From a virus, in the IMG/VR virus record IMGVR_UViG_3300038585_000120, positions 1-39,572 of that record: DNA of 39,572 bases; one strand, given 5' to 3'. Under the pieces are notes generated by a model. It did not search any database. It was given only the letters and a program-made list of their open reading frames with translations, and had not been told where the DNA came from. Positions within the stretch are counted from its first letter, which is position 1. Each line of letters begins with the position of its first letter. Both the position numbers and the translations under genes were made by a program. Of the stretch, positions 9,858 to 20,743 are shown piece after piece.

Positions 9858-9889
9858 TTTGGATATTGGATAGGTAATGCTTATATTTG
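9858..9889 (+). promoter_or_regulatory. Rightward Bacteroidota-type promoter
   Basis: TTTG at 9858-9861, 20 bases, TATATTTG at 9882-9889: a full match to the Bacteroidota consensus. It drives the mini-ORF at 9896 and the membrane protein at 9925. Confidence 0.75.
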
Positions 9890-9895
9890 TTTATT

Positions 9896-9928
9896 ATGAA
9901 TAATAACTGTAAGTTTGAAGAATTATGA
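9896..9928 (+). CDS. Ten-residue leader ORF
   Basis: MNNNCKFEEL, ending in an ATGA overlap with the start of the membrane-protein gene at 9925. It is the first ATG after the promoter, only seven bases beyond its -7 box. It may serve to bring ribosomes to the downstream start rather than encode a functional peptide. Confidence 0.4.
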   Translation: MNNNCKFEEL

Positions 9929-10134
9929 TTAGAAGATTAGCTTATGTAGTCCTTGGGGCTGCTGTTATTGTATTCCTTCCTTATTTAGTGGGGAGGTTGA
10001 TTGAAATTGTCATGTCTCTGCCTAGTTTAACTTCATTCTTCACTTGGGGTGCGGGTATTGTAGGTATAGGGGTAATTATATACGGGTGTGCTATACCGTG
10101 GGCTGTCTACCGCTATATTGTAAATGGAGATTGA
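9925..10134 (+). CDS. Two-span small membrane protein, 69 aa
   Basis: Two hydrophobic segments (about residues 5-29, LAYVVLGAAVIVFLPYLVG, and about 39-62) separated by a short SLPSLTS turn, with basic ends. Inner-membrane location predicted. Holin-like topology is possible but there is no lysis gene beside it. It overlaps the next gene by 11 bases. Confidence 0.65.
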   Translation: MIRRLAYVVLGAAVIVFLPYLVGRLIEIVMSLPSLTSFFTWGAGIVGIGVIIYGCAIPWAVYRYIVNGD

Positions 10135-10303
10135 GATGGAGAATAAAGAATTTCCTTCTAGGTTCTTAGGTAAGAGCTTTGAATATGAAAGTAAGGAGAG
10201 GTTTTTAGAGTCTTTGCGGAGGTTACGTACCAAAAAGGGAAGTATAGTACCGATTAGTACCTATTCTGCACCAAAAATACCCTTTTTACGCCTGTTTCGG
10301 TAA
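10124..10303 (+). CDS. Small basic hypothetical protein, 59 aa
   Basis: MEIEMENKEFPSRFLGKSFE, then an arginine-rich helix (RFLESLRRLRTKKG) and a hydrophobic/basic tail ending FLRLFR. It overlaps the end of the membrane-protein gene by 11 bases; a second ATG at 10136 is possible. Function unknown. Confidence 0.5.
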   Translation: MEIEMENKEFPSRFLGKSFEYESKERFLESLRRLRTKKGSIVPISTYSAPKIPFLRLFR

Positions 10304-10377
10304 TATAGTTCCGTTTACAACTACTCTTTAGTAGAGCTAGATTTGGTTACTTGGTAGTTATTTCTTATGTTTGTGGA

Positions 10378-10644
10378 ATGAGATTATTTGAAAGGTTTAC
10401 CCTTATAGAATTAGAATGGAATGATGTAAATGGTTTTCTGTTTACACTCTGCGGGGTTGAGTACTCTATTAAAGATGGCTCCCCCGCACTACTAGCCTTC
10501 CGCTTTGGAGGCTTTAACAGCTATGTTCACCTTAGTATCCCCTTCTTTTATTTCCATTTTACTCTTCTATTATCTCTCCGTTTAGTTTTATGGTTAGTGG
10601 GGAGGCTACTCCTTTTGTGGGGTGTCCCGCATGAATGCCCCTGA
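10378..10644 (+). CDS. Doubtful hypothetical protein, 88 aa
   Basis: The first two thirds look protein-like (MRLFERFTLIELEWNDVNGF; CGVEYSIKDGSPALLAFRFG), but the last 29 codons overlap the leftward gene 10559-10831 and read as a leucine-rich shadow of it. Either the gene really ends in a convergent overlap, or an indel hides its true stop near 10555. Confidence 0.35.
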   Translation: MRLFERFTLIELEWNDVNGFLFTLCGVEYSIKDGSPALLAFRFGGFNSYVHLSIPFFYFHFTLLLSLRLVLWLVGRLLLLWGVPHECP

Positions 10645-10831: not shown

Positions 10832-11055
10832 TTTACTATTTGTCCCTCAAGCCAATCTTCATCCCCCCACACGCTTAAAGTATCGAACCCTTGTTTTGTT
10901 ATGACTTGGATGTAGAACCTCTTTCCTTGCGGGGTTATGTCGTATAATGGTCTATGCGGGTGTGGTCGAACTACTCTACCTCTGTTGTAGTAAGTAGTAG
11001 TCTCTATGCTAACGCATGACGTTACTATTAGTCCGACTACAATCCATTTTTTCAA
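10822..11055 (-). CDS. Small lipoprotein, 77 aa
   Basis: Start taken as TTG at 11055, which overlaps the upstream stop (TTGA): the product then opens KKWIVVGLIVTSCVS, a short signal peptide with a lipobox ending in cysteine. The longer ATG form from 11094 would bury the signal behind 13 charged residues. The mature part has a PHPHRPLYD segment and ends DWLEGQIVKWK. Probably exported and lipid-anchored; a superinfection or surface role is speculative. Confidence 0.6.
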   Translation of the reverse strand: MKKWIVVGLIVTSCVSIETTTYYNRGRVVRPHPHRPLYDITPQGKRFYIQVITKQGFDTLSVWGDEDWLEGQIVKWK

Positions 11056-11527: not shown

Positions 11528-11775
11528 AATCCTAAAAATTTTTCAAATTCTTGTGGCGGCATATTAACATTAAACGCACTCCCGCTAGTTAAAACAAATA
11601 CAGTTCCCCCCTCTACCTCAATAGACTTCTCAAAGTAACATATTTGAGATGGGCTGAACCATACATCTACTTCTTCAAGGTCTTCCTGTGCTACATTTGG
11701 TGGGGTTATGCCCATCCTCTCGTAGTCTACAGTATCTTCTCTCTGAACTAAAGCTTTGATCTTAATTAGTTTCAT
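11524..11775 (-). CDS. Hypothetical protein, 83 aa
   Basis: MKLIKIKALVQREDTVDYER with beta strands (EVDVWFSPSQICYFEKSIEV; TVFVLTSGSAFNVNM). It resembles a small beta domain. Its opening (KALVQREDTV) parallels the 65-aa protein at 12588 (KALVTKEETV), so the two may be distant paralogues. ATGA coupling at both ends. Confidence 0.65.
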   Translation of the reverse strand: MKLIKIKALVQREDTVDYERMGITPPNVAQEDLEEVDVWFSPSQICYFEKSIEVEGGTVFVLTSGSAFNVNMPPQEFEKFLGL

Positions 11776-11999: not shown

Positions 12000-12591
12000 C
12001 TTTCCATTCATTTAGCATTGCTTCAGCTTTCAACATAAACTCTGATTCTACACAGAACTTAGCAAAGCTTATCATATCCTCTTCAGTGTAAGCGTCTATG
12101 TTAGCTAGAAGAGAGTTTTCTTCTGTCTCTGTTAGTGGGGTGTATCTTGTGCTATACATATTAGTAGGTTCTGGCTCCTTTGCGTTTTCTAATAGTTTGT
12201 TTATTAGTGGGTTGCTAGTTTCATCTAACATGTACTCCGAATGAGCATTCCACCCCCGCCAGAACTCAGAATCCTCAACAGTACCAAAGTTAGCTATTGT
12301 ACTGTCTAGTCTTTCTTCGTCTTTTTCAGATTGCGGGGGGATTACACCTTCAAACCCTGTAGGTGTATTTGTAACCTCCCATATTTTGTCGTCTACTTGC
12401 ATACTCTCATACAGTGTTTCTAACACCTCTTTCTCATCTAAGTACTCAAATATAGGTGGAATACGTCCGTTCTGAGCGTGAATAAGACGATCTGATGGAC
12501 GATCACCCCCGCTATGGTATTGGAAGATACCTACCTTATCTTTCGTCTCTCTAAAGACCTGTAATGTGCGTGTGTTTCTAATCCACTTCAT
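11989..12591 (-). CDS. Hypothetical acidic protein, 200 aa
   Basis: The ATG at 12591 forms an ATGA overlap with the upstream stop and is preferred to the start at 12642. It begins MKWIRNTRTLQVFRETKDKV; the middle contains ANFGTVEDSEFWRGWNAHSE; the C-terminus is helical (EDMISFAKFCVESEFMLKAE). Cytosolic, unknown role. Confidence 0.7.
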   Translation of the reverse strand: MKWIRNTRTLQVFRETKDKVGIFQYHSGGDRPSDRLIHAQNGRIPPIFEYLDEKEVLETLYESMQVDDKIWEVTNTPTGFEGVIPPQSEKDEERLDSTIANFGTVEDSEFWRGWNAHSEYMLDETSNPLINKLLENAKEPEPTNMYSTRYTPLTETEENSLLANIDAYTEEDMISFAKFCVESEFMLKAEAMLNEWKDEK

Positions 12592-12785
12592 TGTTGTGAG
12601 CTTTTTAATTCCTCTTCGGTTACTCTGCCTATAGAACTCCACATAGAATACCCCCGCTCTTCGATAAAGTCTATAAGGTCATCAATGAACCTGTTTTCCT
12701 CTTCTTCAGAGAAAGTACCTACAGTCTCCTCCTTGGTTACAAGGGCTTTTACTTCTATAAACTTACAAATTCTTTCTTCAGACAT
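12588..12785 (-). CDS. Small acidic hypothetical protein, 65 aa
   Basis: MSEERICKFIEVKALVTKEE, then acidic helices (SEEEENRFIDDLIDFIEERG). Coupled to both neighbours by short overlaps. Its KALV.KE.TV segment resembles the start of the protein at 11524. Confidence 0.65.
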   Translation of the reverse strand: MSEERICKFIEVKALVTKEETVGTFSEEEENRFIDDLIDFIEERGYSMWSSIGRVTEEELKSSQQ

Positions 12786-12993
12786 CTTTCTGTAATCTCT
12801 TTATGTACTTGAACAGATTTTCTAGTTTCTTTTTCTTTGTGGGGAGAGATAGGAATTCGTCCTTAAGGTATAAGTCAGCATAATTCTCCTCTTCCTCATC
12901 AACTAGAACTATATCAAAGTCCTCACCCCGTAAAACAGAATAGCTTCCGTCTTCAGGATGCTCTGGGTCATATAACTCTTCTTCCCACTTCAT
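12778..12993 (-). CDS. Acidic hypothetical protein, 71 aa
   Basis: The ATG at 12993 overlaps the upstream stop (ATGA, 12990-12993). MKWEEELYDPEHPEDGSYSV then DFDIVLVDEEEENYADLYL and a basic C-terminal helix (TKKKKLENLFKYIKRLQ). Unknown. Confidence 0.65.
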   Translation of the reverse strand: MKWEEELYDPEHPEDGSYSVLRGEDFDIVLVDEEEENYADLYLKDEFLSLPTKKKKLENLFKYIKRLQKDV

Positions 12994-13334
12994 AGGTTCA
13001 AATATTTCCAGAATTTCCAAGAATCAGATTTCTTAGGCGGGGTGTTCATCTTAAAGTGCTTATCAAAGCCTAAGTCTTGAATCTCTATAGCGAATGCGGT
13101 TAACTCTTCTACAAGATTTTCACATTGAGGAATAATAGAAATAATTACCTCCATCTCCTCGTCAGGGATTCTTAACCCCGACTCATAAACATCCATAGCT
13201 AAATCAAAGCCTTTACCCGTTAAAGCAAACCCTCCACCTTCAATCAGTCCTAGTTCCTCCATCTGAGCTAAATAAAGGAATACAAGCGTTAGTTTGTTTA
13301 CTTGTTCCTCTTCTATTTGTTTTTCTGTCATCAT
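12990..13334 (-). CDS. Hypothetical helical protein, 114 aa
   Basis: MMTEKQIEEEQVNKLTLVFL followed by AQMEELGLIEGGGFALTGKG, which resembles the tail of a winged-helix fold, then acidic helices. Translationally coupled to a 13-residue leader ORF at 13331. First full gene after the promoter at 13427. Confidence 0.65.
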   Translation of the reverse strand: MMTEKQIEEEQVNKLTLVFLYLAQMEELGLIEGGGFALTGKGFDLAMDVYESGLRIPDEEMEVIISIIPQCENLVEELTAFAIEIQDLGFDKHFKMNTPPKKSDSWKFWKYLNL

Positions 13335-13372
13335 TCTACAGTTTCTTTTATCTCAAGTTCTCTTACGTCCAT
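13331..13372 (-). CDS. Thirteen-residue leader ORF
   Basis: MDVRELEIKETVE with an ATGA overlap into the gene at 13334, about 45 bases after the predicted transcript start. Same architecture as the mini-ORF at 9896. A coupling or attenuation device rather than a functional peptide is likely. Confidence 0.4.
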   Translation of the reverse strand: MDVRELEIKETVE

Positions 13373-13426
13373 TAGTACTCTCCTCTTCTGTTACTTGTTA
13401 TTTGTTAATTGATACTTGTCTTTAGG

Positions 13427-13457
13427 CAAATGTAAGTGATTCATTTTGAATGTGCAA
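13427..13457 (-). promoter_or_regulatory. Leftward Bacteroidota-type promoter
   Basis: Minus-strand TACATTTG (13434-13427) with TTG (13457-13455) 20 bases upstream. It heads the long operon 13372 to about 10559. Confidence 0.65.
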
Positions 13458-13599
13458 GAAGTTTTTGAAATTCTTTTCTAGCTTTCTTCAATGCGGGGTT
13501 AACTTGAATGTTAGTGTAGTGGTGAGTTACATACTCCGAATCGTTTACGTTCTTATCAGCCTCGTTGAGGTACGCTATCGCTTGTGTTAGTCTAGACAT
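13441..13599 (-). CDS. Small hypothetical protein, 52 aa
   Basis: MSRLTQAIAYLNEADKNVND and a basic helix (NPALKKARKEFQKLLAHSK). It overlaps the end of the GIY-YIG gene by 13 bases. Unknown function. Confidence 0.55.
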   Translation of the reverse strand: MSRLTQAIAYLNEADKNVNDSEYVTHHYTNIQVNPALKKARKEFQKLLAHSK

Positions 13600-13964
13600 A
13601 CTTTCTCTGTTTTTAAGTTGTGTACCACGTTGTATTTAGGAGAGTGCTTCCTTATTTCAGCCTTCTCTATGTTTAATAATTCTTTCCTTGATATTGCGGG
13701 GTAAGGCTTGAAGGAGTAAGCATCAAACTGCTTTACGGCTTCTTTGAGGTGTTGCGACATTCTAGTTACTAAACTATTAGTGGCCCCCACGTAAACTATC
13801 TCCCCTTCAAAAGTTAGATAGTATATCCCGTTAGTGCATAGGGTAGTCTCCGCGTCGAACGTTACAACAGAGTTTTGAAGTCTTTCAGATTCCCTTTGGT
13901 GTTCACGTTGCCTCACCAACTTCTTCATTGTCGCCTTTCTAGAGGCTTTTGTTTTTCTTGACAT
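13587..13964 (-). CDS. GIY-YIG nuclease domain protein, 125 aa
   Basis: Single-strand-nicking type endonuclease fold. After a basic N-terminus (about 1-30), the domain shows GIYYLTFEGEIVYVGAT (GIY...YVG, about residues 46-62), then the conserved-arginine helix RMSQHLKEA and ELLNIEKAEIRKHSPKYNV, which supplies the catalytic glutamate and the terminal PKYN motif typical of the family. Free-standing GIY-YIG genes in phages are often homing or DNA-processing enzymes; no intron is visible beside it. Confidence 0.85.
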   Translation of the reverse strand: MSRKTKASRKATMKKLVRQREHQRESERLQNSVVTFDAETTLCTNGIYYLTFEGEIVYVGATNSLVTRMSQHLKEAVKQFDAYSFKPYPAISRKELLNIEKAEIRKHSPKYNVVHNLKTEKVCLD

Positions 13965-14042
13965 AATTATGTGTATCTACATTTAATGTACCTACATCGA
14001 CCCCCATACCTTTAGTGGTAGCAGGGCTTTCTGTTAGTTGGC

Positions 14043-14627
14043 TTAGAACGGCAAGTTCCGCTCAAGTTCTGTAGTGGACTGTGACAGTTCGTAGTTGAAG
14101 TGCTGTTGCAGTTGCTCTATCATACTCTGGTTTAATTCTGTTAGTGGGATGTTGCGCCCTTGGGTTAACTCCTCAACAAAAAACAAAAAATTCCCTTTAC
14201 TATAATCAGTATTTTCTTTTTTCTGTATTTCCGTATTTGCTATAGAGTCAGTACTTACTATGCCGCCGAACCGCCGACTTTCGGCATCTGGCTTTTCGGC
14301 GGGGTATAACAGAGAGAAATTGTTCGAATGCTTGCTGATTTCGTAGACTACGTAAGACTTTCCGCCTTGAAGCTTCCCGCCATCCCCCCGCTTAAATTCT
14401 TCCTCTACAATATAACCATACTCGATCAATTCCTTGAATGCAGTCCATACAGCAGTCCTACCCTCCTTAAAGCACTTATACAGATGCTCTCTACGGATAA
14501 TCCAGTGGTCAGGCTTACTTAACAGCCATATCATAACCCCCTTAGCGCGGGCTGATAAGCGGGTGTCATTAATAAATTCGTTGTGAACTGTAGTGAAGTT
14601 CTTCTTGTGCTGTGCACGTCTAATCAT
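14043..14627 (-). CDS. Replication-initiator-like HTH protein, 194 aa
   Basis: The N-terminal winged-helix-like domain (FTTVHNEFINDTRLSARAKG, then VMIWLLSKPDHWIIRREHLY and a recognition-helix region FKEGRTAVWTAFKELIEYG) matches the HTH_36-like modules of phage replisome organisers and plasmid Rep proteins. A Ser/Thr-rich linker and a glutamine-rich C-terminal helix follow. It may bind the origin and recruit the primase-helicase encoded at the left. The leader upstream can form a pseudoknot (14636-14707). Confidence 0.7.
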   Translation of the reverse strand: MIRRAQHKKNFTTVHNEFINDTRLSARAKGVMIWLLSKPDHWIIRREHLYKCFKEGRTAVWTAFKELIEYGYIVEEEFKRGDGGKLQGGKSYVVYEISKHSNNFSLLYPAEKPDAESRRFGGIVSTDSIANTEIQKKENTDYSKGNFLFFVEELTQGRNIPLTELNQSMIEQLQQHFNYELSQSTTELERNLPF

Positions 14628-14635
14628 AAATAAAG

Positions 14636-14707
14636 AACCCCAACAGTACTCGCGGTAGAGGTCGCTTTCCTATCGGGGTTTTGTTGAAATATCAATATCG
14701 CCTCTAC
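14636..14707 (-). promoter_or_regulatory. Pseudoknot-capable leader
   Basis: Two stems cross: GTAGAGG (minus, 14707-14701) with CCTCTAC (14661-14655), and AACCCC (14680-14675) with GGGGTT (14641-14636). The order on the transcript is 1-2-1'-2', so both together form an H-type pseudoknot; separately they would be alternatives. The last strand lies eight bases before the ATG at 14627 and could hide the start site. Confidence 0.55.
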
Positions 14708-14720
14708 TCGATTGTAGCAG

Positions 14721-14728
14721 CAAATATA
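14721..14728 (-). promoter_or_regulatory. Leftward promoter -7 box
   Basis: Minus-strand TATATTTG (14728-14721), a perfect -7 box without a clear -33 element. Transcription from near 14714 would include the pseudoknot leader. Confidence 0.55.
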
Positions 14729-14770
14729 AAACAAAAAATCTAATGCGGTTGTATTTTACTCAAAAATATT

Positions 14771-14968
14771 TTAACTGCCGTGCTCACCATAAATAAAGTC
14801 ACTAACACTTTTTCTTGGTTGGGTTCTCATTACTATTAACTCACTACCGTCAGCGTTGTGTTGATGTAATAGTATTTCTACTTCTAAATCAACAACTCCT
14901 AATACATCACTATCTGAGTAGTCAATGGTTACTTTTCTGTCTAATTTCTTTTCTGCTATTAATGGCAT
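14771..14968 (-). CDS. Small hypothetical protein, 65 aa
   Basis: MPLIAEKKLDRKVTIDYSDS, beta-rich (VLGVVDLEVEILLHQHN; LIVMRTQPRKSVSDF), probably a small beta-sandwich or barrel. It has its own promoter (14988-15017) with a very short leader. Unknown role. Confidence 0.65.
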   Translation of the reverse strand: MPLIAEKKLDRKVTIDYSDSDVLGVVDLEVEILLHQHNADGSELIVMRTQPRKSVSDFIYGEHGS

Positions 14969-14987
14969 AATTTCTACTTATTTACCT

Positions 14988-15017
14988 CAAATATAAGCAT
15001 TCTAACCTTAACAGACA
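14988..15017 (-). promoter_or_regulatory. Leftward Bacteroidota-type promoter
   Basis: Minus-strand TATATTTG (14995-14988), with TTG (15017-15015) 19 bases upstream. The ATG at 14968 follows about 20 bases later. It sits just beyond the terminator of the structured RNA. Confidence 0.65.
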
Positions 15018-15031
15018 AGAAAAAGGGGAAT

Positions 15032-15065
15032 AAAAAACCCCACTAACTAGTTAAAATTAGTGGGG
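15032..15065 (-). terminator. Terminator of the structured RNA
   Basis: On the minus strand CCCCACTAA (15065-15057) pairs with TTAGTGGGG (15046-15038), followed by six T. Its upstream arm shares bases 15060-15065 with the RNA's end-to-end closing stem, so the two helices exclude each other. Confidence 0.9.
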
Positions 15066-15509
15066 AGTCAAATAGAGCAGTAGCCTTACTGCTGTTTCAT
15101 TACACAGACCCAGAGGAGACAGAAGGTAAGTCCTGCATCTATCTCCCCCTTGGACTGATCTGTGATGGCTACGGTTAGGTAGCCTTTTATTATCAGGGTA
15201 GACTTCCCGACTCGACTTGGTTCTCGCCAAGTCATCCATAGTTTTAATATACGGTCTCATCTACCCTAATATCTTTAGCGGGGGTATTTTATATCTGTTC
15301 CTTACACGTACGCTATAAGTCTCTATACCTACATCACTCCTAAGAGCTAGTCCTCCCGCTAAATATCTTAAAAACTACCCTGCATCCACTGCCAGTATGA
15401 AACTCAAAATAATCAGCCTTCGCCTTATTTTTCTGACGTAGAGCAAGGTAGTTTTATTTTTAATGTTTTAGTGGGGCAACTTACCCGCTCCCCACCATTT
15501 TGAAAGAAC
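15032..15509 (-). ncRNA. Structured RNA of about 480 nt, no known class recognised
   Basis: Bounded by a consensus promoter (15516-15546) and a terminator (15032-15065). Perfect helices, given as plus-strand positions, are all mutually nested: closing stem 15060-15067/15488-15495 (8 bp); 15076-15082/15087-15093; 15103-15108/15159-15164 containing 15115-15119/15142-15146; 15167-15172/15179-15184; 15195-15202/15260-15267 containing 15214-15220/15227-15233; 15274-15282/15355-15363 (9 bp); 15371-15379/15447-15455 (9 bp) containing 15406-15412/15425-15431. The only ORF inside (67 codons, 15057-15260) is arginine-rich and runs through several stems, so it is judged spurious. No tmRNA tag or tRNA-like end, no RNase P core and no interrupted host gene (against a group I intron) are visible. 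Confidence 0.75.
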
Positions 15510-15515
15510 GATAAG

Positions 15516-15546
15516 CAAATATAAGAATAATTTCCATACTACCAAA
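15516..15546 (-). promoter_or_regulatory. Promoter of the structured RNA
   Basis: Minus-strand TTTG (15546-15543), 19 bases, TATATTTG (15523-15516): an exact Bacteroidota consensus promoter with no protein gene downstream, only the structured RNA. Confidence 0.8.
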
Positions 15547-15607
15547 TGATTAAACTACAATAGGGCAATTATATACAACTCTACACTTGCTGTATTACAA
15601 CACCTAA

Positions 15608-16069
15608 ATGATAAATCCGTCGGAATACTATATTGGCAGTATGGCAAATCAAGTAATAGTTAGAGAAGATATTGACAGAGAGATTCAACTACCTCATGGC
15701 AACGTTGAACTAGATAAAAAATATGAATACTCAGCACGTCTCGCTAGTTCCGATAAACTCATTGATAACATTAGCCATGAGTTTATCAGCGGTGTATACT
15801 ACAATGACACAAAAGAGATATTCTATTTAAGAACCTACAATGTGTTCCTATTAGACATTAATTGGGATTACGAGACAGCAAGAGTGAAAATCAAAGCTCA
15901 GATTGAAAACTCTGAATTAAATCACTCAATTCATCGACAAGACATGCTAAATGGAACTTCTTACCAATCTATGAATCAAATTCTTTTCGTTCATGATCCG
16001 ATTGATTTCGAGTCTTTGGTTGATCGGGCTTTCGAGGAGTTGTCTCAACATGGTATAGAATTCGAGTAG
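15608..16069 (+). CDS. Hypothetical protein, 153 aa
   Basis: MINPSEYYIGSMANQVIVRE; beta strands in the middle (YNVFLLDINWDYETARVKIK), helical acidic C-terminus (DFESLVDRAFEELSQHGIEF). It is the first rightward gene after the structured RNA, transcribed divergently from it. A short in-frame piece at 16800-16870 (EFESVIDRVQDL) resembles its C-terminus. No family recognised. Confidence 0.7.
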   Translation: MINPSEYYIGSMANQVIVREDIDREIQLPHGNVELDKKYEYSARLASSDKLIDNISHEFISGVYYNDTKEIFYLRTYNVFLLDINWDYETARVKIKAQIENSELNHSIHRQDMLNGTSYQSMNQILFVHDPIDFESLVDRAFEELSQHGIEFE

Positions 16070-16196
16070 ACATTGAGTATACCCTAGCTTTTTTAGGGAG
16101 TAGTTTGAGCTTAGATGGAATCCATCGTCCGTTCTCTTCGCGATAGCCTATAATAGCCACAACCTCCATTTCTAACCCTGCAATATCCCTTTTCAT
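15969..16196 (-). CDS. Doubtful hypothetical protein, 75 aa
   Basis: The non-overlapping part looks coding (MKRDIAGLEMEVVAIIGYRE then NGRWIPSKLKLLPKKARVYS). The last 33 codons run antisense to the 3' end of the gene 15608-16069 and are low-complexity. A convergent gene with a shorter true end is possible. Confidence 0.35.
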   Translation of the reverse strand: MKRDIAGLEMEVVAIIGYREENGRWIPSKLKLLPKKARVYSMSTRILYHVETTPRKPDQPKTRNQSDHERKEFDS

Positions 16197-16264
16197 CAAA
16201 CAAATATTAGTAGTTAATTACACTATTATTTGTATTTTAGGTAATCTTCTACTATACTTGTTCT

Positions 16265-16777
16265 GTGATTAGAGCAGACTTTAATAGTATTCAAGAGTTA
16301 CAGAAGGCTTTCCCTACTGAACAGAGTTGTGTAGATCACTTAGAATTATTGCGGTGGGGCGGCAATGTTGTTAGTCCATTCGACCCTTTGTCTAAGGTCT
16401 ATAACTGCAAGGGGAATCGCTACAAATGCAAGAACACTGGCAAGTACTTCAACGTCAAGACTAACACCCTCTTCGAGAACACAAAGATTTCATTGCAAAC
16501 TTGGTTCTTGGCTATTTGGCTCGTTACTAATCACACTAAGGGTATTAGCTCAATGCAACTAGCGAAGGACTTAGGACTAACTCAAAAGACTGCTTGGTTC
16601 CTACTCCATCGTATTAGACGCTGTTATGGTATTGAGAATGATGGTGAGTTAGAAGGTGAAGTAGAGATAGATGAATCTTTCGCGGGGGGTAAGGCAGCGA
16701 ACAAGCACAGATCACGCAAGAAGACTAAGGAGCGTTATCAGTCTAAAGAATACCCGCACAAAAAGACCATCTTTTAA
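16265..16777 (+). pseudogene. Truncated IS1595 (ISXO2-like) transposase
   Basis: The N-terminal half of an IS1595-family transposase. A degenerate zinc-ribbon (YNCKGNRYKCKNTGKYFNV) lacks the first CxxC pair. It continues with the family block TNTLFENTKISLQTWFLAIW, an HTH (LAKDLGLTQKTAWFLLHRIR) and EVEIDES carrying the first DDE aspartate. Translation stops at residue 170 right after KKTIF, whereas the family is about 300 residues, so the second D and the E are missing. Start GTG. No inverted repeats or target duplication could be recognised. Catalytically dead remnant, or a domesticated DNA-binding fragment. Confidence 0.75.
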
Positions 16778-16828
16778 ATGAAAATCTTCAAATATCTTTC
16801 GAACCCTTTCAGCCCGAGTTTGAATCTG

Positions 16829-16999
16829 TTATTGATCGGGTTCAAGATTTAATTTTAAGTATTCTTCGAACTGCTGGCTTTCCTCAGTTGTGATTTCCTC
16901 CCCCGCTAATATTTTACCTAGTAATTCGGGCTTAACATCCCTTAGATACTTTATCCATTGGATGTGCCTCAGTGTTAATTGGATGGGGGGTTTCTGCAT
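16829..16999 (-). CDS. Small hypothetical protein, 56 aa
   Basis: MQKPPIQLTLRHIQWIKYLR then PELLGKILAGEEITTEESQQ and an acidic end. Compact, helical and plausible. It lies between the transposase remnant and the winged-helix gene, in the same orientation as the latter. Unknown function. Confidence 0.5.
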   Translation of the reverse strand: MQKPPIQLTLRHIQWIKYLRDVKPELLGKILAGEEITTEESQQFEEYLKLNLEPDQ

Positions 17000-17039
17000 A
17001 GGGCAAAGTAAAAAACAGATTTTAAGGGGAATTTGTATT

Positions 17040-17411
17040 CTACCACTCAGGTAAACCCCAAACTGTAGAAGCTCTACTATTCCCTTCTTGAAAGCTCTTT
17101 ACCTTCTCAGCCTTCTTTAACTTGAATAGCCTTTTAGATACATCCTGAGTAAATCCTGTTACATCTTCTCGTTCATCTCGACGGGCAATTTCATCTGATA
17201 TCTCCACCGCTTTCATATACACCCCACTCTCCCCTAGAATACACAGTATTTTGTCAGGTAGGTTCATAGAGACTCGATAAGACTTTGTTTCAATGTTTAG
17301 TTTCATCTGTAACTCTTCAATGACGCTTCTAATCTCCTTTGCTCGGTCAAGGTGTTTCTTCTCTAAAGTGGTCAAAGAGGCAATTGTAATGGACTTATAT
17401 CTCGAATTCAT
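17040..17411 (-). CDS. Winged-helix protein, 123 aa
   Basis: An N-terminal coiled-coil-like helix (LEKKHLDRAKEIRSVIEELQ) is followed by a winged-helix domain: ILGESGVYMKAVEISDEIA, VSKRLFKLKKAEKVKSFQEG and the typical terminal strand TVWGLPEW. This C-terminal pattern recurs in small Bacteroidota DNA-binding proteins often found near mobile elements. Predicted DNA binding; target unknown. Confidence 0.7.
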   Translation of the reverse strand: MNSRYKSITIASLTTLEKKHLDRAKEIRSVIEELQMKLNIETKSYRVSMNLPDKILCILGESGVYMKAVEISDEIARRDEREDVTGFTQDVSKRLFKLKKAEKVKSFQEGNSRASTVWGLPEW

Positions 17412-17442
17412 ATCACCCCAAAACTACCGCTATATCTAGGCT

Positions 17443-18276
17443 GTGGGCGGTGTAAAGAAGTATATAATCTCCATTAAGAAGGGTAAACTTGTTATTCCCA
17501 AGTTCATAGAAGGGATTGAGATAAAATTATCCCGACCAATTACAGGTAAAATAAGACAAGCAACAATAAGCAAAACATCAACAGGTAAGTATTTTGTATC
17601 TATTTTGTGTGAGACTAGGGAGACTTACAAGAATAAATCCCAAATCAAAGAAGAGACCGCTGTTGGTGTTGATTTAGGGGTAAAATATTTTATGGTAACT
17701 TCCGATAGTGAGGTAATAAATAACCCTAAACACTTAAGTAAAGTAGAATCAAGGCTGAAGTACCTTCAGCGAAGGTATTCTAAATATAAAGGAAAAAGAA
17801 CAAAAGATAAATTAGTAAAGCTACATGAGAAAGTAACAAACCGACGTAAAGATTTTTTACATAAACTATCCACTAAGTTGATTCGCGAGAACCAAACGAT
17901 ATGCTTAGAGGATTTAGATGTGGAGGGTATGATGCAAAATAGGCATCTCGCTCAATCAATATCAGACGCGAGTTGGTCAGAGTTCAATCGTATGATTGAA
18001 TATAAGGCCGAGTGGTATGGAGTGAACGTACTTCGTATCGGCAGATTTGAACCATCATCAAAGACTTGCTCTAACTGCGGGGATGTAAACAAAGGGCTGC
18101 AACTAAAAGACCGAGAATGGACTTGTAAATCTTGTGAGGAAACTCACGATAGAGATATTAACGCTGCGGTGAATATTAAAAATTTTGCTTTAAGAAACTA
18201 TGTATCTGGGACGGATACTCAAAATCAGAACGAACTGCCTTCATTAGAGGGAGTGCTGACTTCTGAAAACCCCTGA
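17443..18276 (+). CDS. tnpB: TnpB-type RNA-guided nuclease, N-terminally truncated, 277 aa
   Basis: IS200/IS605-type TnpB. Conserved C-terminal two thirds: WED-like strands (LSRPITGKIRQATISKTSTG), RuvC-I GVDLGVKYF (Asp77), RuvC-II CLEDLDVEGM (Glu156), a four-cysteine zinc ribbon (Cys209, 212, 228, 231) and RuvC-III THDRDINAAVNI (Asp238). Full-length TnpBs are about 370-410 residues; here about 100 N-terminal residues (first WED part and REC domain) are absent and a TAG lies two codons before the GTG used. The catalytic residues remain, but guide-RNA binding is probably lost. No tnpA is nearby. Confidence 0.85.
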   Translation: MGGVKKYIISIKKGKLVIPKFIEGIEIKLSRPITGKIRQATISKTSTGKYFVSILCETRETYKNKSQIKEETAVGVDLGVKYFMVTSDSEVINNPKHLSKVESRLKYLQRRYSKYKGKRTKDKLVKLHEKVTNRRKDFLHKLSTKLIRENQTICLEDLDVEGMMQNRHLAQSISDASWSEFNRMIEYKAEWYGVNVLRIGRFEPSSKTCSNCGDVNKGLQLKDREWTCKSCEETHDRDINAAVNIKNFALRNYVSGTDTQNQNELPSLEGVLTSENP

Positions 18277-18290
18277 CTTAGGAGTTAGTC
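18262..18290 (+). other. Candidate right end / omega-RNA 3' hairpin of the TnpB element
   Basis: Just across the TnpB stop, CTGACT-TAGG-AGTTAG can form a 6-bp hairpin (one G-T pair) after AAAACCCC, as at right ends of IS605-like elements, where the guide RNA scaffold normally ends. The exact boundary cannot be set by eye. Confidence 0.35.
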
Positions 18291-18321
18291 CAAACTACAA
18301 ATACTTAAGAAGTATCAAATC

Positions 18322-18329
18322 TAATTTTG
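18322..18329 (+). promoter_or_regulatory. Late promoter -7 box before the portal gene
   Basis: TAATTTTG, 23 bases before the portal ATG, matches TAnnTTTG; no clear -33 box. It follows the TnpB element directly. Confidence 0.5.
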
Positions 18330-18352
18330 CAGTCAAACCTTGAACTATAGGA

Positions 18353-20743
18353 ATGGAAGAAAATCAGAATCTCTTTCCCTCAACATTTGAGAAGGAGAAA
18401 AACAAAGCTTCAAAAGACTATCTCCTTAAGTACGGACAGACTATGTGGCAAGCAGCCGAGTCTCAATCCACTTCCGTACTCTACGACCAACGCAGAGATA
18501 GGTTCGTAAGAAACAGAAAGTATTCTGAAGGACTCCAATCCGTAGAAAAGTTTAAGAGCCAATTATCTGTTACAGGAGACAATACCTACCTGAACATTGA
18601 TTGGGGAGTATCCACCCCGCTACCTAAAATGGTAGAAGTCATCAGAGGGCAGATGATTAACCAACCCTACAAGATAGACTTCAAACCAACAGACTCTTTA
18701 TCCAAAACAGAGTACGACAGAGAAAAGCAAGTCTTAAGGGCTAAGATGAAGATGCAAGAAGAACTTGCACCATTAGTCGAACAAGGCGTCATCCCCAAGG
18801 AGAAAAACCTCCCTGAAGATGACGATGAACTAGAAATCTATATGACTACTAACTTCAAGTTAGCACAGTCTATAGCATTAGAGAATATTACAGACGCGAT
18901 ATTAGAGGATAATGATATTGAGTACATAAACGAGCAGATCGCTAAAGACTTGGTTGATCTCAAAATATGTGCCGTTAGAGTTTGCTTAGACGAAAACAAG
19001 AATATTTGTCTGGAATACGTAGACCCCGTAAACTTAGTAACCTCTTATGTCAAGAAGCCTGACTTCTCAGACGCCAAACACATCGGAGTGCTAAAGCGCA
19101 TGACCATTGAGGATTTAAGGGTTCAAGCTGCGGGAGAGTTGAGCGAAGAAGACTTGATGGACATTGCTAAGAATGTGGCAGGGAAGTATGACAATCCTTC
19201 ATGGGACTCTTCTTTCGGCAATGACTATTACTACAATTCAGAGAACCACGATGCCTACAACAAGTTCCAAATACTTGTACTAGACTTTGAGATGTTCTCC
19301 ACCGACAAAGTAAAGATTACCCAAGTCAAGAGCAAGAACGGAGGGTACAAGACATTAGTAAACGAAGAGCCTCGAAACAAGAAGGCAGAGACAAAGCAAA
19401 CAGAGAAGAAGATAAAGAATATCTACTGCGGGAAGTATGTAGTAGGAACAGACTATCTCTATGACTACGGATTAAAGGAGCACATCATCCGCCGCAAAGT
19501 CAATAGAAATCCATCAGCAAATACATCACTAGGATTCATCGTGTATGCCCCCGACATTCACGACATGGAGAATAAGAGTAAGACAGAAGAGATGATTCCC
19601 CACGCGGATAAACTCATCCTCTACCAACTCAAACTCCAACAGATAATCTCTAAGGCAGCACCAAGCGGATACGCAATCAACATGGACGCTGTATCAGAAG
19701 CCCTTCAAGGAATGGGTATGGGGGGAATGCAACCCGTAGATGCTAGAGCGATGAGAGACCAAATTGGAGACATCTACTTCAAGAGCGTTAGAGAAGACGG
19801 AACCCCACTAACACAGAACACCCCACCAATCATTAACCTACCTAATGGACTAGACGCTTCTATCCAAATTATCTCAGAAGCCTACAACCAAGAGTTGATG
19901 AGAATGAAAGAGGTAGTAGGGCTAAATGATGCAGTAGATTCCTCTCAACCCGACAAGAAAGCACTCATCGGAGTACAGAAGCTTGCCGTAGCAGCCCACA
20001 AGAACGCCCTTAGAACGCTTTACGGAGGTTTCCTCAAGGTAAATGAGGAAATGGCTCGACAAGTATCTATGTTAGCACAACAACTTATTAGAGCAGGTAT
20101 CAACGTGGATAAGTTCGAGAACATGGTTGGAGAGGAGACTGTTAAGCAGTTGGACATCACTAAAGTCCCCGCAAGCGAGTTCTCTATTCAAATCAAGATG
20201 CTCCCAGACGAGGAAGATAAGGCGTACATCGAATCTAAAGTAGAACTAGCACTTCAATCACAACCCCCGCTAATTAACCTTCAAGATGCCTTTGCAGTAC
20301 GAAGAGTAATGGATGAGGACGTAGACAAAGCAGAACAACTTCTAGCTGTAAGAGAGAAGCGTAGAGCAAAAGAACGTCAGAAGTCTCAAGAGGAGATGAT
20401 GGTCAAAGACAGGGAGATGGAACTCCAAGTCGCCCAACAAAAAGAAGCAGCAGCCCAACAGACTATCCAAATCAAAACTCAAATGGAGTTAGCCCTAGAG
20501 AAGGAGAAGGGAGAGAATGAGTTAGCACAGATAGTAGCTAAAGGAGAAGAAGACCGTAAGACAGAGATGGTCGTACTCCAAGGGAAGATGAAGCTGATAG
20601 AAAAAGCAGCCGAAGAAGAGAAGAAGAAAGAAGGTGAGATAGAAGATAGAGAGTCCAGCGGCTCTAGCTACGATAAGATAGACATGCCAGAAGCAAGTGG
20701 CTCACGCATGCCCGCGATGGGGGTTTCAAATAAGGTCGTCTAA
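18353..20743 (+). CDS. Portal protein, 796 aa
   Basis: Forms the dodecameric portal ring through which DNA is packaged. Length and layout fit large podovirus/crAss-like portals: an N-terminal helical region with STPLPKMVEVIRGQMINQPY, then the clip/stem-type core (ILEDNDIEYINEQIAKDLVD; VDPVNLVTSYVKKPDFSDAK), a glycine-methionine loop (GMGMGGMQPVDARA), a crown-type helix with VGLNDAVDSSQPDKKALIGV, and a long C-terminal coiled coil rich in E/K/Q (about 650-760). It is first in the late operon, followed by scaffold-like and capsid genes. The last 18 bases overlap the antisense XRE gene. Confidence 0.85.
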   Translation: MEENQNLFPSTFEKEKNKASKDYLLKYGQTMWQAAESQSTSVLYDQRRDRFVRNRKYSEGLQSVEKFKSQLSVTGDNTYLNIDWGVSTPLPKMVEVIRGQMINQPYKIDFKPTDSLSKTEYDREKQVLRAKMKMQEELAPLVEQGVIPKEKNLPEDDDELEIYMTTNFKLAQSIALENITDAILEDNDIEYINEQIAKDLVDLKICAVRVCLDENKNICLEYVDPVNLVTSYVKKPDFSDAKHIGVLKRMTIEDLRVQAAGELSEEDLMDIAKNVAGKYDNPSWDSSFGNDYYYNSENHDAYNKFQILVLDFEMFSTDKVKITQVKSKNGGYKTLVNEEPRNKKAETKQTEKKIKNIYCGKYVVGTDYLYDYGLKEHIIRRKVNRNPSANTSLGFIVYAPDIHDMENKSKTEEMIPHADKLILYQLKLQQIISKAAPSGYAINMDAVSEALQGMGMGGMQPVDARAMRDQIGDIYFKSVREDGTPLTQNTPPIINLPNGLDASIQIISEAYNQELMRMKEVVGLNDAVDSSQPDKKALIGVQKLAVAAHKNALRTLYGGFLKVNEEMARQVSMLAQQLIRAGINVDKFENMVGEETVKQLDITKVPASEFSIQIKMLPDEEDKAYIESKVELALQSQPPLINLQDAFAVRRVMDEDVDKAEQLLAVREKRRAKERQKSQEEMMVKDREMELQVAQQKEAAAQQTIQIKTQMELALEKEKGENELAQIVAKGEEDRKTEMVVLQGKMKLIEKAAEEEKKKEGEIEDRESSGSSYDKIDMPEASGSRMPAMGVSNKVV

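Follow-up and report, generated by a model that had tools for sequence, protein, structure and literature searches.

Does the segment at 15032–15546 of a phage genome, which precedes a divergent rightward gene, encode an RNA that stands on its own, or is it a leader, a DNA signal or the remnant of a gene? The window analyzed here is the whole 39,572-base virus record IMGVR_UViG_3300038585_000120. Its portal, major head and terminase proteins gave phage-family matches, and the portal was closest to those of podovirus-like phages of Flavobacterium, Cellulophaga and Maribacter. The window contains 8 occurrences of the promoter pattern TTTG-N17-21-TANNTTTG, where 0.89 would be expected, and 0 shuffles reached 8. 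This excess of a strict promoter pattern makes a member of Bacteroidota the most likely host.

The preliminary description had claimed an exact Bacteroidota promoter reading leftward, a 9-bp terminator at the end and about 450 bases in between without a credible gene, and each of these was recovered (Table 1). Both promoter elements lie on the minus strand and together make a full promoter according to the published consensus for the primary sigma factor of Bacteroides, TTTG near −33 and TAnnTTTG at −7 (PMC7366714). The RNA would start at approximately 15511–15508. The terminator stem contains 11 pairs, the nine named earlier being the perfect ones, and is the longest terminator stem at 12000–18400. 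The longest ORF within the RNA encodes 67 aa (15057–15260, minus strand) and had no relative in PHROG, phage and GTDB searches; no family and no relatives were found for the ORFs inside the RNA in general. A second TATATTTG box was observed at 14995–14988, with CTTG 20 bases upstream, before the next leftward gene (14771–14968). With a promoter-like box of its own in front of this downstream gene, the RNA unit can stand alone, and host RNA polymerase would transcribe it alone as a monocistronic RNA gene of ~475 nt. The first rightward ORF beyond the RNA begins at 15608 and is divergent from the unit.

A significant Rfam match, which the preliminary description had set against a new RNA, did not appear: the search of the RNA against Rfam 15 returned nothing above threshold. 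The Rfam models of RNase P, group I and II introns, 6S RNA and the known riboswitches gave no match, and those of ROOL, GOLLD and OLE gave none up to E 10. The tRNA-like ends and tag frame of tmRNA were not found by ARAGORN and Rfam either, in agreement with the first reading that tmRNA ends, an RNase P core and an intron are absent, and ARAGORN detected no tRNA genes in the window. The best sub-threshold Rfam match, NsiR1 (E 0.024; 23.6 bits, with the cut-off at 39), was rejected, since the terminator hairpin accounts for most of it.

Table 1. Coordinates of the RNA unit in the window; domains, loop contacts and the end-joining helix are computational predictions.
Feature	Position	Strand	Details
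−33 promoter element TTTG	15543..15546	−	Bacteroides primary sigma factor consensus (PMC7366714)
−7 promoter element TATATTTG	15516..15523	−	19 bases past the −33 element
Predicted transcript, structured RNA, ~475 nt	15032..15510	−	fold statistics; no Rfam match at gathering score
Hairpin A, 8 bp, GGUGGGG region, 13-nt loop	15469..15497	−	pair probability 0.97
Long hairpin B, 13+5+5+7 bp	15371..15455	−	pair probability 0.75–0.99
Branched domain C, 9-bp closing helix UUUAGCGGG/CCCGCUAAA	15274..15363	−	closing helix probability 0.96
Hairpin D, 13-bp closing helix and 8-bp inner helix	15191..15271	−	pair probability 0.98 and 0.90
Hairpin E, 6 bp	15167..15184	−	pair probability 1.0
Hairpin F, 7+3+11 bp, 14-nt apical loop	15103..15164	−	pair probability 0.85–0.98
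Hairpin G, 7 bp	15076..15093	−	pair probability 0.96
Intrinsic terminator, 11-bp stem and six U	15032..15065	−	CCCCACTAATTTTAACTAGTTAGTGGGG-TTTTTT
Kissing helix 1, 5′ half, loop of A, GGUAAGU	15479..15485	−	perfect 7-bp complement of 15131–15125; predicted
Kissing helix 1, 3′ half, loop of F, ACUUACC	15125..15131	−	loop-loop duplex −11.4 kcal/mol including wobble ends; predicted
Long-range helix 2, 5′ half, internal bulge of B, GUUUCAU	15397..15403	−	perfect 7-bp complement of 15100–15094; predicted
Long-range helix 2, 3′ half, F-G linker, AUGAAAC	15094..15100	−	complement of the B bulge; predicted
Alternative end-joining helix, 5′ arm	15488..15504	−	competes with hairpin A and terminator; partner 15067–15051
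Alternative end-joining helix, 3′ arm	15051..15067	−	overlaps left terminator arm

Minimum-free-energy (MFE) folding against shuffled controls, a check proposed earlier, gave −173 kcal/mol and a z of −6.9 for the full RNA on the minus strand, with 0 of 100 shuffles as good. The plus strand of the same segment gave an MFE of −129.6 and a z of −3.7. When 228 of the 336 480-nt windows on both strands were sampled, the RNA segment ranked first by z (−8.8). For the core without terminal hairpins, the z was −6.0 on the minus strand vs −2.9 on the plus strand. The MFE structure contains 152 pairs, 17 of which are G-U, with a mean pair probability of 0.86; where at least eleven perfect helices had been claimed, it holds 15 of at least 5 bp. 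The core asymmetry together with the G-U pairs argues that the element works as RNA rather than DNA. Hairpin-rich DNA acting as DNA, at an origin or a packaging site, is hardly probable at all: the plus strand also beats chance, but the strand asymmetry is strong, 17 pairs are G-U, and promoter and terminator both lie on the better-folding strand.

A host-type promoter, a terminator, the lack of a gene inside, an exceptional fold on one strand and the lack of a known family can all be read from the sequence. The two transcription signals, the statistics of the fold and its strand asymmetry support a free-standing structured RNA, which is very probably real. That it exists as an RNA gene has good support; its function we infer.

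The predicted layout consists of seven hairpin domains (A to G) followed by the terminator, and the RNA would fold as a row of these domains. Pairing is weaker in the inner helices of domain C (pair probability 0.36–0.88). Two perfect 7-bp matches join unpaired segments of the 5′ half to the 3′ half, and the first, between the loops of A and F, reaches 9 bp once wobbles are counted. Two or more 7-bp matches of this kind appeared in 0.3% of the shuffles made within segments, in 0.7% of the pooled shuffles, in 1% of the dinucleotide shuffles after refolding and in 0.6% of other windows of the genome, frequencies that refer to matches identified after the fact and from one sequence. Opening up the loops would take 6.4 kcal/mol, and the two duplexes yield about −11.4 and −5.0. 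The two loop-loop helices are considered candidate tertiary contacts, a prediction and not a proof, which would hold the 5′ domains (A and B) to the 3′ domains (F and the F-G linker).

These two predicted contacts are better long-range links than the 8-bp end stem inside which all helices had been said to nest without conflict. The complementarity of the ends stood, at 15496–15488 with 15067–15059 and extending to 17 columns. The conflict-free nesting did not, as the stem shares bases with the 5′ arm of hairpin A and the left arm of the terminator; because of this overlap, the end stem is an alternative state. The end-joining duplex was computed at −18.0 kcal/mol and the terminator stem halves at −16.5, a slight advantage for the former. 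In folding of the full-length RNA, hairpin A and the terminator outcompeted the end-joining helix, and the end-joined form was the MFE structure only while the right terminator arm was missing, in nascent RNAs of 455–464 nt. The end-joined state could serve as an antiterminator or arise as an intermediate of folding.

An antiterminator would make the segment an attenuator: a long leader regulating the leftward genes, with pairing between the 5′ end and the left terminator arm permitting read-through into a 65-aa gene and the replication initiator gene. The energy of the end-joining duplex, the end-joined fold of the nascent RNAs and the replication gene downstream on the same strand are in line with such control. 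Hairpin A, however, forms first and locally, and both hairpins win once the full terminator is present; a separate promoter-like box precedes the downstream gene, a 450-nt leader with seven domains would be unusual, and no known riboswitch matched. We consider the attenuator unlikely.

The replication gene further downstream (14043–14627), on the same strand and 400 bases from the RNA, matches replication initiation families (DnaD/replication-initiator-like). A replication-control or primer RNA for the phage origin, working with this gene, is quite unlikely, for although a 7-bp kissing loop resembles the control RNAs of some plasmids and the cumulative GC skew turns in the RNA region, the skew also follows gene direction. 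Iteron-like repeats were looked for and none was found, the RNA ends in a terminator, and no antisense partner was identified.

Searches for other copies covered the IMG/VR, GTDB, phage and plasmid collections. The sole other copy was found in contig IMGVR_UViG_3300038532_000082, which is 99.95% identical to the window over 19,430 bases, with 9 differences, 0 of them in the RNA. All 9 fall in the 94-base stretch 10945–11038, beside which a 34-base segment at 11050 is repeated at 11770; this stretch appears to be a variable spot or a site of recombination between repeats. Distant blastn in phages and plasmids yielded only the near-identical contig and chance matches. No further copy was obtained when the portal, replication and neighbour proteins were compared with IMG/VR, or when patterns taken from the RNA, peptide-coded or as plain DNA, were searched in IMG/VR and GTDB. 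Covariance models of three RNA domains, run over relatives, pattern matches and named phages, detected no homologue, and no divergent homologue was found in any of the four collections. The L074 pattern match was rejected as a coding gene.

Neither the early region nor the RNA was found in phage relatives with 57–60% identical portals, several of which are represented by fragments. Since these relatives show no copy, the RNA is probably not essential to this phage type. Structured-looking gaps in relatives L016 and L054 were ordinary or coding on closer inspection. The L016 segment 4553–4765 (plus strand), ~210 nt of non-coding sequence with a promoter and a terminator at its borders and no Rfam match, folded no better than chance (z −0.7). 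The single GTDB portal match pointed to a phylum of ~1-Mb genomes, where the blastn matches were short and due to chance. A portal relative (25%), L059, was found in an uncultured-bacterium bin whose phylum has genomes of ~1 Mb; either its contig was mis-binned or it represents a phage of a lineage with small genomes.

No second copy of the RNA is present elsewhere in its own genome. That the segment is a degraded mobile element (intron or MITE) or a small-protein gene is very unlikely: the neighbourhood includes two transposase remnants and a GIY-YIG-like gene, and the 67-aa ORF exists, but Rfam gave no intron match, no other copies were found in the genome or the searched collections, no ORF has a family, and decay should not leave 15 perfect helices.

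Elsewhere in the window, a TnpB/OrfB-like gene at 17443–18276 (plus strand) retains the RuvC and TNB parts, starts ~120 profile positions into the family and stops 76 bases before the portal gene; it is a truncated or repurposed TnpB. The ISXO2/IS1595-like transposase gene at 16265–16777 (plus strand) encodes 170 aa, stops early in the catalytic domain and is probably a remnant. A rightward island inside the leftward early region (9858–10640, plus strand) contains three promoter matches and small ORFs, with a GC skew opposite to its surroundings (+0.24).

The description of the free-standing RNA as a large structured phage RNA outside known classes was supported by promoter, terminator, fold and strand asymmetry, while its GOLLD/ROOL style is an analogy only. 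By this analogy, ROOL and GOLLD, both large phage-borne RNAs with loop-loop contacts that keep them together (PMC12286853), are the nearest in style. ROOL (Rumen-Originating, Ornate, Large) is, like the RNA here, phage- or prophage-borne and free-standing, and has long-range loop contacts, predicted in our case, and a function that is unknown (PMC12286853). The solved ROOL example is 659 nt vs ~475 nt here, and, unlike ROOL, the RNA has no Rfam match up to E 10 and no tRNA genes nearby. GOLLD, also a large structured phage RNA of unknown function (PMC12286853), is often >800 nt, with a conserved 3′ domain and often near tRNAs, whereas the RNA here has ~475 nt, no tRNA nearby and no Rfam match. 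None of the testable features of ROOL or GOLLD membership was found in it. RNA anti-CRISPRs (Racrs), which are solitary phage-encoded non-coding RNAs (PMC10651486), mimic single CRISPR repeats; the ~475-nt RNA here is without a repeat array.

The RNA is a candidate new class of large structured phage RNA. Whether it acts in trans as a free-standing structured RNA we judge at even chances. The compact RNA would then bind a protein of host or phage, a ribosome or an RNA during infection, acting as a stable scaffold or decoy; alternatively, it might assemble into an oligomer via the same loop-loop contacts. The loop-loop complementarity, as computed from the sequence, is compatible with a homo-oligomeric cage of the ROOL/GOLLD type. 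It is rather unlikely that the RNA represents a novel class of large, ornate phage RNAs that is pinned by two loop-loop helices, possibly self-assembles into oligomers like ROOL and GOLLD and evolved independently in Bacteroidota phages. To our knowledge, few large structured RNAs have been reported from phages, and a function is known for almost none of them. If independent, this RNA would come with a precise structural prediction and be short enough for in vitro transcription and probing, and it would help to tell whether large structured RNAs are a general phage strategy.
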